A stretch of 45,405 bases of DNA from Sulfurimonas sp. Lineage in GTDB: Bacteria; Campylobacterota; Campylobacteria; Campylobacterales; Sulfurimonadaceae. The stretch spans positions 1 to 45,405 of the forward strand of contig NZ_JABIOQ010000059.1 in NCBI RefSeq assembly GCF_018698455.1, read 5' to 3'. Below, piece by piece: positions 23,607-36,663 of the stretch. Below the pieces are notes generated by a model. The model had not been told where the DNA came from. It was given only the letters and a program-made list of their open reading frames with translations, and made no database searches. The position numbers and the translations under genes were made by a program. The first letter of the stretch is position 1, and each line of letters opens with the position of its first letter.

Positions 23607-24140
23607 ATGGAAGAACTTATCGCAAAAAAGTATATAAAAGCTTTAACAGATGACTTTGATATTGAATCTATTCAAAATAGTGCAGATATTTTTTCTGTGT
23701 TAGCAGATTCATTTACTGATGAAAAATTTAAAAGTATTATTATTAGCCCACTTGTGAGCAGTAGTGATAAAGAAAGTATTTTATTAGATGCTATTAAATC
23801 AGCTTCATCAGACAAAATAAATAATTTTATCAAACTTTTGGTTGAAAATAAACGTCTTGATATTATTCCTGCAATTGCAAAAGAGTTAAAAAAAGATATT
23901 GCAAATTCTACTAAAACTTATACTGGTATCATTTATAGTGATAGTGATATTGAGTTAAAAGTTTTAGAGGAATTAAGTCATGGTTTAAGTGCAAAGTTTA
24001 ATTCTACAATAACATTATTATTTGTTAAAAATGATTTTAATGGTATTAAAGTAGAAGTAACTGGACTTGGAATAGAAATTAGTTTTTGTAAAGATAGAAT
24101 CGATAGTCAAATAATAGAACATATAATTAAAGCAATTTAA
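23607..24140 (+). CDS. atpH: F0F1 ATP synthase subunit delta
   Basis: 177 aa OSCP/delta subunit linking the stalk to the top of F1. IAKKYIKALTDDF is the typical start. FIKLLVENKRLDIIPAIAKE is the conserved central motif. The C-terminal half is divergent, as is usual. It starts immediately after the atpF stop. Confidence 0.93.
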   Translation: MEELIAKKYIKALTDDFDIESIQNSADIFSVLADSFTDEKFKSIIISPLVSSSDKESILLDAIKSASSDKINNFIKLLVENKRLDIIPAIAKELKKDIANSTKTYTGIIYSDSDIELKVLEELSHGLSAKFNSTITLLFVKNDFNGIKVEVTGLGIEISFCKDRIDSQIIEHIIKAI

Positions 24141-24161
24141 CTTGATAAGAGGAGAACAATA

Positions 24162-25679
24162 GTGGTAGCAAAAATTCAAGCTGATGAGATCAGCTCAATA
24201 ATTAAAGAACGTATTGACAACTTTGAACTAAGTGTTGATATTAACGAAACAGGTAAAATTGTTTCTTATGCTGATGGTGTTGCACAAGTTTACGGACTAA
24301 GCAATGTTATGGCTGGTGAAATGGTAGAGTTCGAAGACGGTACACAAGGTTTAGTAATGAACCTTGAAGAAAGTAAAGTAGGTGTTGTTATACTTGGTGC
24401 TGGTACTGGACTTCGTGAAGGTGTGAGTGTTAAGCGTCTTGGAAAACTTTTACGTGTTCCAGTTGGTGATGCACTACTTGGTCGTGTTGTAAATGCACTA
24501 GGTGAGCCAATCGATGGTAGAGGTCCAATAGAAACAACAGAAACTCGTTTTGTTGAAGAAAAAGCACCTGGAATTATGGATAGAAAATCTGTACATGAGC
24601 CTTTATCAACTGGTATTAAAGCAATTGATGCTCTAGTTCCAATTGGTCGTGGTCAACGTGAGCTTATCATTGGTGATAGACAAACTGGTAAAACAACAGT
24701 TGCTCTAGATGCTATCATTAATCAAAAAGGTAATGGCGTTGTTTGTATTTATGTTGCCATTGGTCAAAAAGAATCTACAGTAGCACAAATTGTTCGTCGT
24801 TTAGAAGAACATGGTGCTTTAGAATATACAATTATTGTATCTGCAACTGCTGCTGAAGCTGCTGCACTTCAATTTTTAGCTCCATATACTGGCGTTACTA
24901 TGGGAGAATACTTCCGTGATAGTGCCAGACATGGTCTAATCGTATATGACGACTTATCTAAGCATGCGGTTGCATACCGTGAAATGTCACTTATTCTTCG
25001 TCGTCCTCCAGGTCGTGAAGCATACCCAGGTGATGTTTTCTATGTTCACTCTCGTTTACTTGAGCGTGCTGCTAAAATGTCTGATGAAAATGGAGCCGGT
25101 TCTTTAACTGCTCTTCCTATTATTGAAACACAAGAAGGTGATGTTGCGGCATATATTCCAACTAATGTTATTTCAATTACAGATGGTCAGATTTTCCTTG
25201 AAACTGACTTATTTAACTCTGGTGTTCGTCCAGCAATTAATGTAGGTCTTTCAGTTTCTCGTGTTGGTGGTGCTGCTCAAATTAAAGCTACTAAGCAAGT
25301 TGCTGGTACTTTAAGACTTGATCTTGCACAATATCGTGAGCTTCAAGCATTTGCACAGTTTGCATCTGATCTTGATGTTACATCTCGTAATCAACTAGAG
25401 CGTGGTCAGAGAATGGTAGAGGTTCTTAAACAGGGACCATTTTCTCCACTTTCAGCTGAAAAACAAGTTGTAATTATATTTGCTGGTAATACAGGTTTCT
25501 TAGATGATATGGATTCTTCAAACGTAGTGCGTTTCGAAGCTGAAATGTATCCATTCCTTGAAGCATCATATCCACAAATCTTTGAGAATATTAGAAGTAC
25601 TTCTAAGGTTGATGATGATACAAAATCATTACTTATGAAAGCTCTTGAAGAATTCAAAGCTAGCTTTATTGCTAACTAA
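24162..25679 (+). CDS. atpA: F0F1 ATP synthase subunit alpha
   Basis: 505 aa. The non-catalytic nucleotide site P-loop is GDRQTGKT (171-178). [39 protein letters not shown] spans the interface, and [20 protein letters not shown] carries the alpha-subunit signature with the Arg finger. The start is GTG at 24162 with AGAGGAG upstream. Confidence 0.98.
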
Positions 25680-25690
25680 GGAATACTAAA

Positions 25691-27987
<2,297 letters not shown>

Positions 27988-32898: not shown

Positions 32899-33408
32899 AT
32901 GGCAATAGAAGCGAATCAAATAGTATCAATAGAATACGAAGTACGTGATGGTGATAAAGTAGTAGATAGTAATATGGGTGGAGACGCACTTATTTTTATG
33001 TTTGGAAAAGGTCAAATTATTCCAGGTTTAGAAAATGGAATTGTTAATATGACTGCCGGCGAAAAAGCAGATATACTAGTTAAACCAGAAGATGCTTATG
33101 GTGAGTATAGCGGAGAAGCAACTCAAGAAGTTCCAGTAGACCAATTTGCAGGAATTGATTTAGCACTAGGAATGACTCTTTATGGTCAAGCGGAAGATGG
33201 TGGAACTACACAAGTAACTGTTAAAGAAATTGGTGCAGATACAATTACTATTGACTTTAACCATCCTTTAGCTGGAAAAGAATTAATGTTTAGTATAAAA
33301 CTAAACAGTGTTAGAGATGCTTCTGAAGAAGAAGCAATGACAGGTGTACCTTCTGAAAACAAGAAAGAAGAGGGTGAAAGCTGTGGTACAGGCTGTGGAT
33401 GCCACTAG
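32899..33408 (+). CDS. slyD: FKBP-type peptidyl-prolyl isomerase SlyD
   Basis: 169 aa. The FKBP domain (IEYEVRDGDKVVDSN, GKGQIIPGLENGI) is interrupted by the insert-in-flap chaperone domain (EDAYGEYSGEATQEVP...TVKEIGADTITIDFNHPLAGKEL). A short metal-binding tail ends CGTGCGCH, far shorter than the His-rich tail of E. coli SlyD. Likely role in protein folding and nickel supply to hydrogenase or urease. The end overlaps the next gene by 26 bp. Confidence 0.95.
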   Translation: MAIEANQIVSIEYEVRDGDKVVDSNMGGDALIFMFGKGQIIPGLENGIVNMTAGEKADILVKPEDAYGEYSGEATQEVPVDQFAGIDLALGMTLYGQAEDGGTTQVTVKEIGADTITIDFNHPLAGKELMFSIKLNSVRDASEEEAMTGVPSENKKEEGESCGTGCGCH

Positions 33409-34153
33409 TTTCGTAACTGCTTCTGAAGCTTCTTACCAAGCGAAGAAGACAGCTACACTTTTAAAAACACTTAATGTCAATGCTCTCATTATGGGAGAGG
33501 TTGGCGTTGGTAAAAAAAGTTTAGCTATTTTTATACTTCCAGATGCACCTATCTTAGATGCATCTAACTTTGATGAACTTCTTACTAGCATAGAAAGCTG
33601 TGATGAAATTATCATAACAAATATTGACAATTCACCAAATATTAAAAGACTTATAGATACAATTAACGAAAGTAGTATTCGTGTTATAGCGACTTCAAAA
33701 AGTTTTTTTACAAATGACTTTATTAATGATTTATTTAGTGTAAAATTTACAATTCCACCTCTTATAGAAAGAGAAGAAGATGTAGCACTTTTAGTAAAAT
33801 CATTTGTAAAAGAAGCAGCTCTCTTATTTGGATTTACTAAAGAGTTTAATATGGATAATTTTCATGCAGACTTGAGAGAAAATTCGAAATCTTTGAGAAA
33901 ACAAGTTACTATGACATATTTGATGCAAGATATCGGTGATAGCGAACTTATGAGCATTATGGAAAATTATTTGTACGATAAAATGGGTTCAAGTAGTGAC
34001 TATAGAAACTTTTTATATCTTTACGAAGTTCCTCTCATTAGAGCGGGACTAGCAAAATTTAAATCTCAATTACAATTATCAGATAAATTGGGTTTAAATA
34101 GAAATACCTTAAGAAAAAAAATATCTGATAATAAACAATATTTAGAGGAGTAG
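33383..34153 (+). CDS. degenerate NtrC-like AAA+ protein with C-terminal Fis-type HTH
   Basis: 256 aa. Walker A is GEVGVGKKS (38-46). The central region has [15 protein letters not shown] and [20 protein letters not shown], matching the PPLxxRxEDI part of sigma-54 activators. The last ~30 residues ([18 protein letters not shown]) are a Fis-type HTH. It lacks the GAFTGA loop that contacts sigma-54, the Walker B is weak (EIIITNID), and no receiver domain is present. GTG 33383 is chosen as start (GAGGGTG seven bases upstream, inside slyD). It probably binds DNA but may not activate sigma-54. It sits 2 bp before the metacaspase gene, so they are likely co-transcribed. Confidence 0.75.
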
Positions 34154-34155
34154 GT

Positions 34156-35589
34156 ATGAGAGTAATTTTAAATCTATTTTTAATGATGTTATTATGTACC
34201 GTTTCACTGCATGCACAACGTGGTCTGAAACTCAAGCAGATGAAAGAAGAACAGCGAATAGCACTTGTTATTGGAAATGTTAATTACCAAAGTCTATCCA
34301 AACTTAAAAATCCCATAAATGATGCTCGAGCGATGAAAAATGCTTTAAAAAAGCGTGGTTTTAGTGTTATGTATAAAGAAAATGCTTCTAAACGCGAGAT
34401 GAAGAAACTTATAAAAGAATTTACATATAAGCTCAAACGTGGTGGAGTAGGACTTTACTATTTTGCTGGACATGGTATAAATGTAAATGGTCAAAACTAC
34501 CTTGTTTCTATAAACTCAGACTTAGCAAGTAAAGAAGATGTTGAGTATGAAGCTTATGCCTTAAACCGCATAACTAAGAAGATGCAAGAGGCGAAAAATC
34601 GTTTAAACATTGTAATACTTGATGCTTGCAGAAACGACCCGTTTTCTAGAAGTGCTGGCGGTGGTTTGGCTCCTGTTGGAAATGCCAAAGGAATTTTTGT
34701 GGCCTATGCGACGGAAGCTGGAGATGTAGCGGCCGATGGTAGTGGTAAAAATGGTGTTTTTACAAAACGACTCATAGAGCATATGAACGAAAAGGGTGCT
34801 ACGATAGAGAGAGTCTTTAAAAATGTACGTACAGATGTTCAAACAGATACTAATGGAAGACAGTCTCCTGGAGTTTACAACCAGATAACAGGTGACTTTT
34901 ATTTTACACTTCCAAATACAAATACGAACGGATATAAAAAAACAAAACAACAAGTTAAAAGCACAAAAAAATCAAGCTTTAATTTTGGAGACAATGCTCC
35001 ATCTACTTTCTCACTTACAATAAACCAAACTCCATCTGATGCAAGAGTAAGCATAACAAATATAAGTCCAAGATACTATGATGGTATGGCTTTAGAAGCT
35101 GGGTCTTATAACATAAAAGTAAGTAAGACTGGTTACTACTCTAAAACTGGAAAAGTTGATTTACAGAGTGATTTGAATATTGAAATAAGTTTAAAGAAGA
35201 AACTTGTGTCAAGAAAAGTAGTGGAGAAAAAAACAGGAACAAAGGATGTAGTTGTTTTAAATGGTTTAATGTGGCAAGATAATCGAGATGCTAAAACTTT
35301 AAGAGAAGACTGGGGAGGGGCTAAAGATTACTGTAGCAATCTAAAGTTAGCTGGATACTCTGACTGGTATCTTCCAAGTAAGGATGAACTAAAAAGTATC
35401 GTTGATAAAAGTAGAACACCAAGTATAAAGAATGAATTTACTAATGCTACTTCTAGTTTTTATTGGTCTTCTTCGTCCTATGTTTCGAATTCTAAGCGTG
35501 CTTGGTTTGTAAACTTTAAGCTTGGCACTTCCTACAGCTACAATAAGACCGATGAGTTTTATGTCAGGTGTGCTAGGGCAGGACAATAA
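34156..35589 (+). CDS. secreted metacaspase-like protein with PEGA and DUF1566 domains
   Basis: 477 aa. A signal peptide (to ~Ala20) is followed by a caspase-like p20 domain (33-250) with catalytic His106 in [12 protein letters not shown] and Cys158 in [31 protein letters not shown] is the usual first strand. Then comes a PEGA-like domain (~284-347: [27 protein letters not shown]). Last is a DUF1566/Lcl-C domain (~365-475: [34 protein letters not shown]). Caspase-type peptidases of this class usually cut after basic residues. Export suggests periplasmic or surface action. Confidence 0.88.
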
Positions 35590-35724: not shown

Positions 35725-36663
35725 ATGAGTAAAATTGCAATGATATTCGCAGGACAAGGTAGTCAAGCTGTAGGAATGGGTAAAGATTTTTATGAAAACA
35801 GTGAAGTAGCACGAGAGATGTTCGCTAAAGCTGGAGAGAGAATAGGTGTTGATTTTAAAGAATTAATTTTTGAAGAAAATGAGAAATTAGGTCAAACAGC
35901 TTACACTCAACCTGCAATTCTACTTGTTCAGATGATAGCTTACAAGCTTTTTACTGATGCTTGTCCAGATGTAAAAGCTGAGCTTTTCTTAGGACACTCA
36001 CTTGGTGAGTTCTCTGCACTATGTGCTTCTGGTGCTATAGATTATGTTGACGCAGTTGAGTTAGTTCATAACCGTGGAGCTTACATGCAAAAGGCATGTG
36101 ACACTGTTGAAGCTGGAATGATGGTTCTTGTTGGACTTGATGATGCTTCAGTTGAAAAAGTTTGTGCTGATGCGCAAGCAGATGGTAAAAAAGTTTGGCC
36201 AGCTAACTATAACCAAGATGGTCAACTTGTTGTTGCTGGTATGAAATCAGACTTAGTTTCATTAGAGCAAACTTTTAAAGATGCTGGTGCAAAACGTGCG
36301 ATTTTACTAGATATGTCTGTTGCTTCTCATTGTGAGATTTTAGCACCTGCTCAAGCACCACTTGCTGAGTTAATGGAAAGAATGGTTAGTGATAATTTTT
36401 CTGCTCCCATCATCTCAAACGTGACAACTGCTCCATATAGTACTAAAGCAGATGCAGTTGCACTTCTTAAAAAGCAACTTGTTGAGCCAGTTAAGTACAA
36501 ACAGTCTATATTAGCTGTAGCTGGTGATTTAGATATGGCAATTGAGTTCGGTAACGGCATTACTCTTAAAGGTCTTAACCGTAGAATAGCTAAAGAGCTT
36601 ACAACTTTAAACATTTCAGATATGGCATCTTTAGAAAAAGTAAAAGAAGAAATCTGTTCATAG
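35725..36663 (+). CDS. fabD: malonyl-CoA-acyl carrier protein transacylase
   Basis: 312 aa. FAGQGSQAVGMG is the N-terminal motif. Catalytic Ser92 lies in GHSLGEFSAL, and the catalytic His is in MSVASHCEIL. The TQPAILL and GNGITLKGLNRR motifs are also present. It loads malonyl groups onto ACP for fatty-acid synthesis. The next gene starts two bases after the stop. Confidence 0.97.
   Translation: MSKIAMIFAGQGSQAVGMGKDFYENSEVAREMFAKAGERIGVDFKELIFEENEKLGQTAYTQPAILLVQMIAYKLFTDACPDVKAELFLGHSLGEFSALCASGAIDYVDAVELVHNRGAYMQKACDTVEAGMMVLVGLDDASVEKVCADAQADGKKVWPANYNQDGQLVVAGMKSDLVSLEQTFKDAGAKRAILLDMSVASHCEILAPAQAPLAELMERMVSDNFSAPIISNVTTAPYSTKADAVALLKKQLVEPVKYKQSILAVAGDLDMAIEFGNGITLKGLNRRIAKELTTLNISDMASLEKVKEEICS

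Follow-up and report, generated by a model that had tools for sequence, protein, structure and literature searches.

DGR variable proteins with N-terminal orthocaspase domains have been described in cyanobacteria (PMC7517822), where a caspase-type peptidase is joined to a C-type-lectin-fold variable region. Most of these proteins are predicted to be cytosolic and some to be secreted or membrane-located; for DGR-linked kinases of the same build, the lectin-like domain has been proposed to be autoinhibitory or ligand-recognizing (PMC7517822). The protein considered here has the same general build and is encoded in a 45,405-nucleotide stretch of Sulfurimonas sp. DNA (contig NZ_JABIOQ010000059.1), the whole of which we call the window. 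It differs from the cyanobacterial proteins in that it looks exported, carries an Lcl_C/DUF1566 tip and belongs to a Campylobacterota host, the genome of which encodes two distantly related caspases with variable regions (VRs) at opposite ends; neither 'DUF1566' nor 'FGE' occurs in the main text of PMC7517822.

Two further groups of systems are comparable. The putative antigen sensors that DGRs diversify in multicellular bacteria (Dore et al. 2024, PMC10907252) couple C-type-lectin variable targets, some of which are predicted to be periplasmic or secreted, to effectors that include caspase-like peptidases; these systems centre on STAND/NACHT or MoxR NTPases and adaptor domains. Likewise, the VMAP/iSTAND ternary conflict systems, with their DGR-linked FGS domains (PMC7159879), place diversified domains of C-type-lectin fold alongside caspase or trypsin domains, but they are NTPase-centred and multi-gene, and no such genes were seen beside the window gene among the ORFs at 30–40 kb. 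For the former systems too, no STAND/MoxR NTPase or adaptor gene was found among the ORFs of at least 80 residues in that interval, five of which were scanned with Pfam. We take the first author of the report on the cyanobacterial proteins to be Vallota-Eastman, and that of the report on the ternary conflict systems to be Kaur.

The individual parts of the window protein also have precedents. DUF1566/Lcl_C is known as a DGR target from a source (PMC6642488) whose main text does not contain the word 'caspase'. A prokaryotic metacaspase fused to an FGE-sulfatase domain was reported in 33 sequences, in a survey (Asplund-Samuelsson et al. 2012, PMC3501461) that gives the Epsilonproteobacteria a low frequency of metacaspases, 0.01 per 1000 proteins; that build is shared by 4 of the 14 window-type homologues scanned, and neither 'PEGA' nor 'DUF1566' occurs in the main text of the survey. 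DUF1566 as a DGR target, orthocaspase domains in DGR proteins and DGR sensors next to caspase effectors are already in print. What is new, within the literature searched, is the Campylobacterota host, the Lcl_C–PEGA–caspase build with a probable signal peptide, and the sharing of a VR, at opposite ends, by two distantly related caspases of one genome. No DGR-diversified caspase in Campylobacterota was found by title or abstract in that literature, the scope of which mostly excluded subscription journals and preprints.

The caspase gene and its neighbours

The gene is an ATG ORF of 477 codons plus stop, without internal stops, at 34156–35589 on the forward strand, as are the other features of the window given below; these are exactly the limits given in the preliminary description, which had read the product as a metacaspase–PEGA–DUF1566 fusion. 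Two of the three domains score above their Pfam cut-offs: Peptidase_C14 (PF00656, caspase/orthocaspase) at residues 34–249 (34255–34902; E 2.2e-39, 136 bits, cut-off 21.4), for which a genome search gives the same span, and Lcl_C (PF07603, DUF1566) at residues 369–474 (35260–35577; E 3e-26, 92.5 bits, cut-off 34.9). The PEGA assignment is tentative: residues 286–347 (35011–35196) match the model, and four of the 14 window-type homologues scanned pass its cut-off of 20.8 (L052, 23.9; L060, 22.6; L061, 21.0; L063, 34.2 bits; here and below, G, C and L numbers denote genomes, contigs and loci), but the window protein itself scores only 18.8, and we refer to this region as PEGA-like.

The catalytic dyad, described beforehand as intact, is found at the positions claimed, with His106 encoded at 34471–34473 and Cys158 at 34627–34629. 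Counting the window's own, the His is kept in all 22 aligned caspases and the Cys in 16. The six aligned caspases without the Cys (L074–L079) are distant homologues in which it is replaced by Ala or Ser, and are possible pseudo-enzymes. Judged from its sequence, the window protein is an orthocaspase/metacaspase-type (C14) cysteine protease with its His–Cys dyad in place. Its caspase part finds human MALT1 paracaspase as the best sequence match in the PDB (E 6.1e-19), and the protein matches the PADLOC 'caspase' model at 51 bits; the NCBIfam model for EACC1-associated caspases (NF047832) scores 68.5 bits against a cut-off of 140, which is not reached. The genome of the organism holds five PF00656 matches, and any such match is seen in 11 of the 41 genus genomes searched. 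Residues 1–20 (34156–34215) constitute a putative signal peptide, recognized by eye; among the 21 homologues listed, the majority begin similarly, and the protein is probably exported, in line with the secretion first proposed.

Immediately upstream, at 33344–34153, lies the degenerate regulator that had also been described: a truncated NtrC-type protein with a sub-threshold HTH_8 match in Pfam and partial, sub-threshold matches to the NtrC family in NCBIfam. The caspase gene starts two bases past the stop of the regulator, co-transcription is possible, and the two were originally put forward as a two-gene system, acting perhaps in envelope stress. The distribution of the regulator argues strongly against this. 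It is nearly universal in the genus (109 of the 120 genomes searched, and 72 of the 73 of good quality) and, in all 38 loci read, which come from 34 distinct genomes, it is followed by fabD after a gap of 7–100 bases and with no caspase between, even though five of those 34 genomes (G099, G129, G140, G153 and G178) hold window-type caspases elsewhere. Conversely, neither the regulator nor fabD is present in 20 fetched regions around caspase homologues, several of which stop at contig ends. Since the two genes do not occur together in the relatives examined, we reject the pairing, give a two-gene envelope-stress system practically no credence, and treat the regulator as context rather than as a partner. 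Within the window, an acyltransferase gene (35725–36663; Acyl_transf_1, 99.2 bits), identified by eye as fabD, follows the caspase; given that fabD directly follows the regulator in every relative read, the window caspase gene separates two genes that are adjacent there.

A variable region shared by three genes

The initial reading, which took the protein for a possible surface protease or envelope-stress effector, missed the main feature of the C-terminal domain: going by its pattern of variation, the segment formed by the last 46 codons (35449–35586), inside Lcl_C, is almost certainly a DGR variable region. The genome contains five Lcl_C matches, and the same VR segment is present in the window gene and in two neighbouring genes of contig C45, where a 160-residue Lcl protein (C45b) is followed directly downstream by C45a, a protein of 602 residues that has Lcl_C N-terminally and a caspase-like part C-terminally. 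In C45a, the VR is near the N-terminus, before the caspase part, and the VRs of the two caspases are thus at opposite ends. The caspase part of C45a is 26% identical to that of the window protein over the matched stretch (E 2e-6); the Pfam C14 model misses it, and the caspase-like Raptor_N model reaches 20.4 bits, below its cut-off of 27. Nevertheless, because of this similarity, and because two proteins that align with its C-terminal part at 48–52% (from G153:C23 and G173:C160) are themselves C14 matches, C45a appears to be a caspase of a distant family.

In ordinary divergence, third codon positions vary most, and this is what is seen in the Lcl DNA upstream of the VR, where the three genes differ pairwise at 53–68 of 159–162 bases. 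The opposite pattern holds for the final 138 coding bases, up to the end that the copies share: the 30 columns that vary among the three copies are distributed 15/12/3 over first, second and third codon positions (27 of 30 at first or second), such that third positions are variable in 3 of 46 codons, whereas in the adjoining upstream Lcl DNA they vary in 36 of 53 (Fisher p 1.1e-10). An adenine is present in at least one copy at 25 of the 30 variable columns, and writing A at every one of them yields an Asn-rich translation, as in real templates, although this result is drawn from those three copies themselves and gives no independent evidence. The VR closes with an invariant 27-mer (35560–35586) which, with up to three mismatches allowed, is found at three places in the genome, all identical and all VR ends; presumably, this is where the DGR homing site (IMH) would lie.

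The strongest evidence is provided by the templates of relatives, as these had no role in choosing the columns. At least four genomes of the genus (G201, G197, G178 and G221) have Lcl_C genes beside an RT, and their DGRs, comprising RT, template, Avd-like gene and targets, rewrite Lcl_C genes: mismatches between template and VR fall at adenines and elsewhere, respectively, in the numbers 22/1 and 23/0 (G201), 23/0 and 24/0 (G197), 12/0 and 15/1 (G178) and, more weakly, 20/9 (G221), with 16/0 and 19/0 in G020, which belongs to another genus of the family. The RTs of the relatives' DGRs are 56–64% identical to that of G197. The Avd-like gene of the G197 locus scores 34.5 bits, under the model cut-off of 40, and a similar small ORF can be seen by eye in the same place at the loci of G201, G178 and G221. 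When the VR of the organism is compared with these templates, which come from other genomes and are not cognate ones, adenines coincide with 29/30 (G201), 28/30 (G197), 24/30 (G178) and 27/30 (G221) of its variable columns, and with 26/108, 26/105, 21/108 and 24/105, respectively, of its invariant columns, the enrichment having p values from 1.5e-13 (G201) to 1.5e-9 across the four. G218 may hold a further DGR, as one of its Lcl_C matches has a partial RT match next to it (C372:3197–4115; L136).

The same comparison bears on a reading that dispenses with a retroelement, namely, gene conversion among the three Lcl paralogues and subsequent positive selection on the binding loops, which would suit an assembly that yields no RT (see below). 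Selection is not expected to act at the adenines of independent templates, nor to shun third positions so strongly in the VR alone, and we consider this explanation highly improbable.

A model of the Lcl_C domain, made from 36 sequences (alignment A2: the segment of the window protein plus 35 out of 50 listed ones, the longer and overlapping segments having been omitted), has a mean pLDDT of 92.6. The best match of solved structure is the C-terminal domain of Legionella Lcl (8q4e; Foldseek E 2.1e-5; VIA Z 12.9 over 105 residues, 2.3 Å, 31% identity), followed by many C-type-lectin-like domains. The VR corresponds to model residues 77–122 and spans the last four strands; according to the model, then, it sits in the last strands of a domain of C-type-lectin fold. 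No DGR variable protein of solved structure is among the best 50 VIA rows, which excludes nothing, and a full-length AlphaFold model from a two-row alignment (pLDDT 36.7) was not used.

Elsewhere in the genome, contig C58 (14031–14841; L021) carries tandem Lcl genes that differ at 7 of 195 bases over 65 upstream codons and at 51 of 132 bases, including 18 third positions, over the last 44 codons. The second copy holds a TGA stop, and one end may come from another source.

Retroelements and their remains in the genus

The extent of the signature was gauged from third-position differences over the last 44 codons in 61 same-genome Lcl pairs, one of which was counted twice, L053 being contig C12 of G153. 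Eleven pairs have at most six such differences, and the other 50 have at least ten. The low group is made up of the three pairs of the organism itself (3, 3 and 2 of 44), those of the RT-bearing genomes G197 (2), G201 (1), G178 (3) and G020 (6), and pairs from G140, G123, G077 and G179. G140 is a single-contig genome with a VR-type Lcl pair (3/44) and no RT match, whereas in G179 only RT fragments remain, between two VR-type Lcl genes (6/44); from these two cases, VRs seem to outlive their retroelement in the genus. The G179 locus itself (C30:2430–3631; L175), with RT fragments flanked by VR-type Lcl genes, has the appearance of a decaying DGR. A VR-like pair in the complete genome G099, one member of which is in an Lcl–caspase, is ambiguous at 10/44.

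The assembly of the organism (76 contigs, 98.1% complete) yields no RT, either by PF00078 or by tblastn with the DGR RT of a relative; over 19 genomes, the same tblastn recovered the RTs of G178, G197, G201, G221 and G020, as well as the fragments in G179. Nor is there a template in the assembly, as judged by the lack of a fourth copy of the VR-end 27-mer at up to three mismatches, and when viral contigs were searched for a cognate template, a 26-mer from the end of the VR found no exact match there. An orphan piece from the 3' end of an Lcl_C gene, lying in a short frame (C59:5061–5156; L022), was considered as a template and rejected, as its DNA alignment is a misfit and it has no 27-mer match. 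The DGR cassette of this genome is lost or unassembled.

Because neither an RT nor a fourth copy of the VR end is found, present diversification of the VR is not supported, and the three VRs may be fossils. Accordingly, the VR may have been written in the past and the retroelement since lost, leaving Lcl_C as a fixed adhesin or binding tip. This would agree with the high completeness of the assembly from which RT and template are missing, and with the VR-type genes of G140 and G179. Set against it, an unassembled or episomal cassette is possible, and only 2–3 of 44 third positions differ among copies whose upstream DNA is far apart, from which the last rewriting would be recent relative to the divergence of the genes. 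We regard this outcome as a real possibility, to which we give somewhat less than even weight; it is compatible with the origin of the VR in our preferred account, set out below, and the two are not exclusive.

Association of caspases with Lcl_C, and a possible function

Homologues were sought in 200 genomes of the family and in genome_contigs. Besides the window's own, the matches listed include at least five intact caspase–Lcl_C ORFs (L052, L061, L062, L063 and L069) and at least one broken one (L072); among those matches, the architecture is not common. Of the 14 window-type homologues scanned, five end in Lcl_C (L052, L061, L062_6489, L063 and L069) and four in FGE-sulfatase (L060, L064, L070 and L071), one each has a cyclophilin (L067) or a thioredoxin-like domain (L068), and in three (L062_8090, L065 and L066) no C-terminal domain is recognized. 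The cyclophilin and thioredoxin-like fusions (L067:5742–7070 and L068:5068–6771) join caspases to folding-enzyme families.

A DGR reading was rejected for the caspase–Lcl fusions L061, L062 and L072, which have no VR pattern. As the caspase–Lcl ORFs of G178 (L061) and G020 (L072) mismatch the templates of their own genomes, and those of G153 (L062) lack the pattern, DGR-rewritten caspases are shown only in the genome of the organism itself. L052 lies on a 3.9-kb contig with a single copy of Lcl, and no DGR RT was found in G228, the genome to which it belongs. Beyond cellular genomes, no relative of the whole protein was confirmed in viral contigs or phage records. Plasmid records give 284 matches, none covering 80% of the query in one place, and the best 15 of these span the caspase part and, in two cases, the linker as well; the Lcl_C domain alone is found on viral contigs at 60 loci, with 29–59% identity over the best segment.

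The association of the two domains was also counted by gene neighbourhood. In 41 genomes of the genus, Lcl_C is found within 2 kb of 5 of 25 PF00656 genes, against 0.27 expected, a count to which fusions, a tandem pair and the gene of the window itself contribute. Furthermore, among the matches listed, Lcl_C lies beside 12 of the 26 best places for C45a-type caspases (at least 230 bits, own locus included, the query itself holding Lcl_C), versus none of 29 regulator loci used as controls, which are shorter (2.5–3.8 kb). At C45 of the organism, as in G099, G161 and G093, an Lcl gene is followed by a caspase gene and then by the gene for a third protein, which looks exported (N-terminus like APTWYHN). 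From these counts and the recurrent order, we infer that caspase and Lcl_C act jointly, with or without a DGR. At C45 itself (24038–26361; L019:6036–8485 and the stretch below 6036), the arrangement is operon-like, with an Lcl gene with VR, an Lcl–caspase gene with VR and an open frame of 333 residues with a signal-like start, which we take to resemble LPP20-type lipoproteins; in G099 (L280), the caspase of the equivalent locus is split into two frames, and G161 (L291) also has the same order. Additionally, the single contig of G140, a genome without RT match, carries four caspase genes at C1:198000–216000 (L281), two of which enclose a pair of VR-type Lcl genes.

We consider it probable that the window protein is an extracytoplasmic sensor–effector: on binding a ligand, its C-type-lectin surface, diversified by the DGR, would activate the caspase or direct it. 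The three VR copies would have been written from one template by an RT since lost or unassembled; the diversified Lcl_C surface, outside the cytoplasm, might then bind a variable ligand on a phage, a neighbouring cell or a host, and binding would either relieve inhibition of the caspase or bring it to its substrate, the two possibilities also raised for the DGR-linked kinases of cyanobacteria (PMC7517822). Cleavage, probably after Arg/Lys, may lead to self-sacrifice, to envelope remodelling or to damage to the bound cell. The diversified tip could instead pick a substrate or docking partner, delivering the protease to varied surface proteins, and not be an on-switch at all. The varied C-termini of the homologues (Lcl_C, FGE-sulfatase, cyclophilin and thioredoxin-like) are what docking modules would show, and the second caspase bears its VR at the other end; autoinhibition by the lectin-like domain fits equally well, and we hold a purely docking role to be possible but doubtful. 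The broadest form of the sensor–effector account, in which one template rewrites in trans the Lcl_C domains of two distant caspase families and of a companion lectin gene, amounting to extracytoplasmic anticipatory recognition in Sulfurimonas-type bacteria, is, on balance, unlikely. Were it true, a population would contain a large set of exported proteases, each of them ready for its own, as yet unmet, ligand.

Few tests have so far addressed what DGRs do in cellular genomes. The window gene offers a small but concrete case: its product links a hypervariable binding surface covalently to a protease that has an intact dyad and probably a signal peptide, and several members of the same group possess DGRs directed at this domain, Lcl_C. 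Two questions thereby become testable, namely, whether lectin-like domains that have been diversified switch caspases on or guide them, and what happens to variable regions after their retroelement has been lost.
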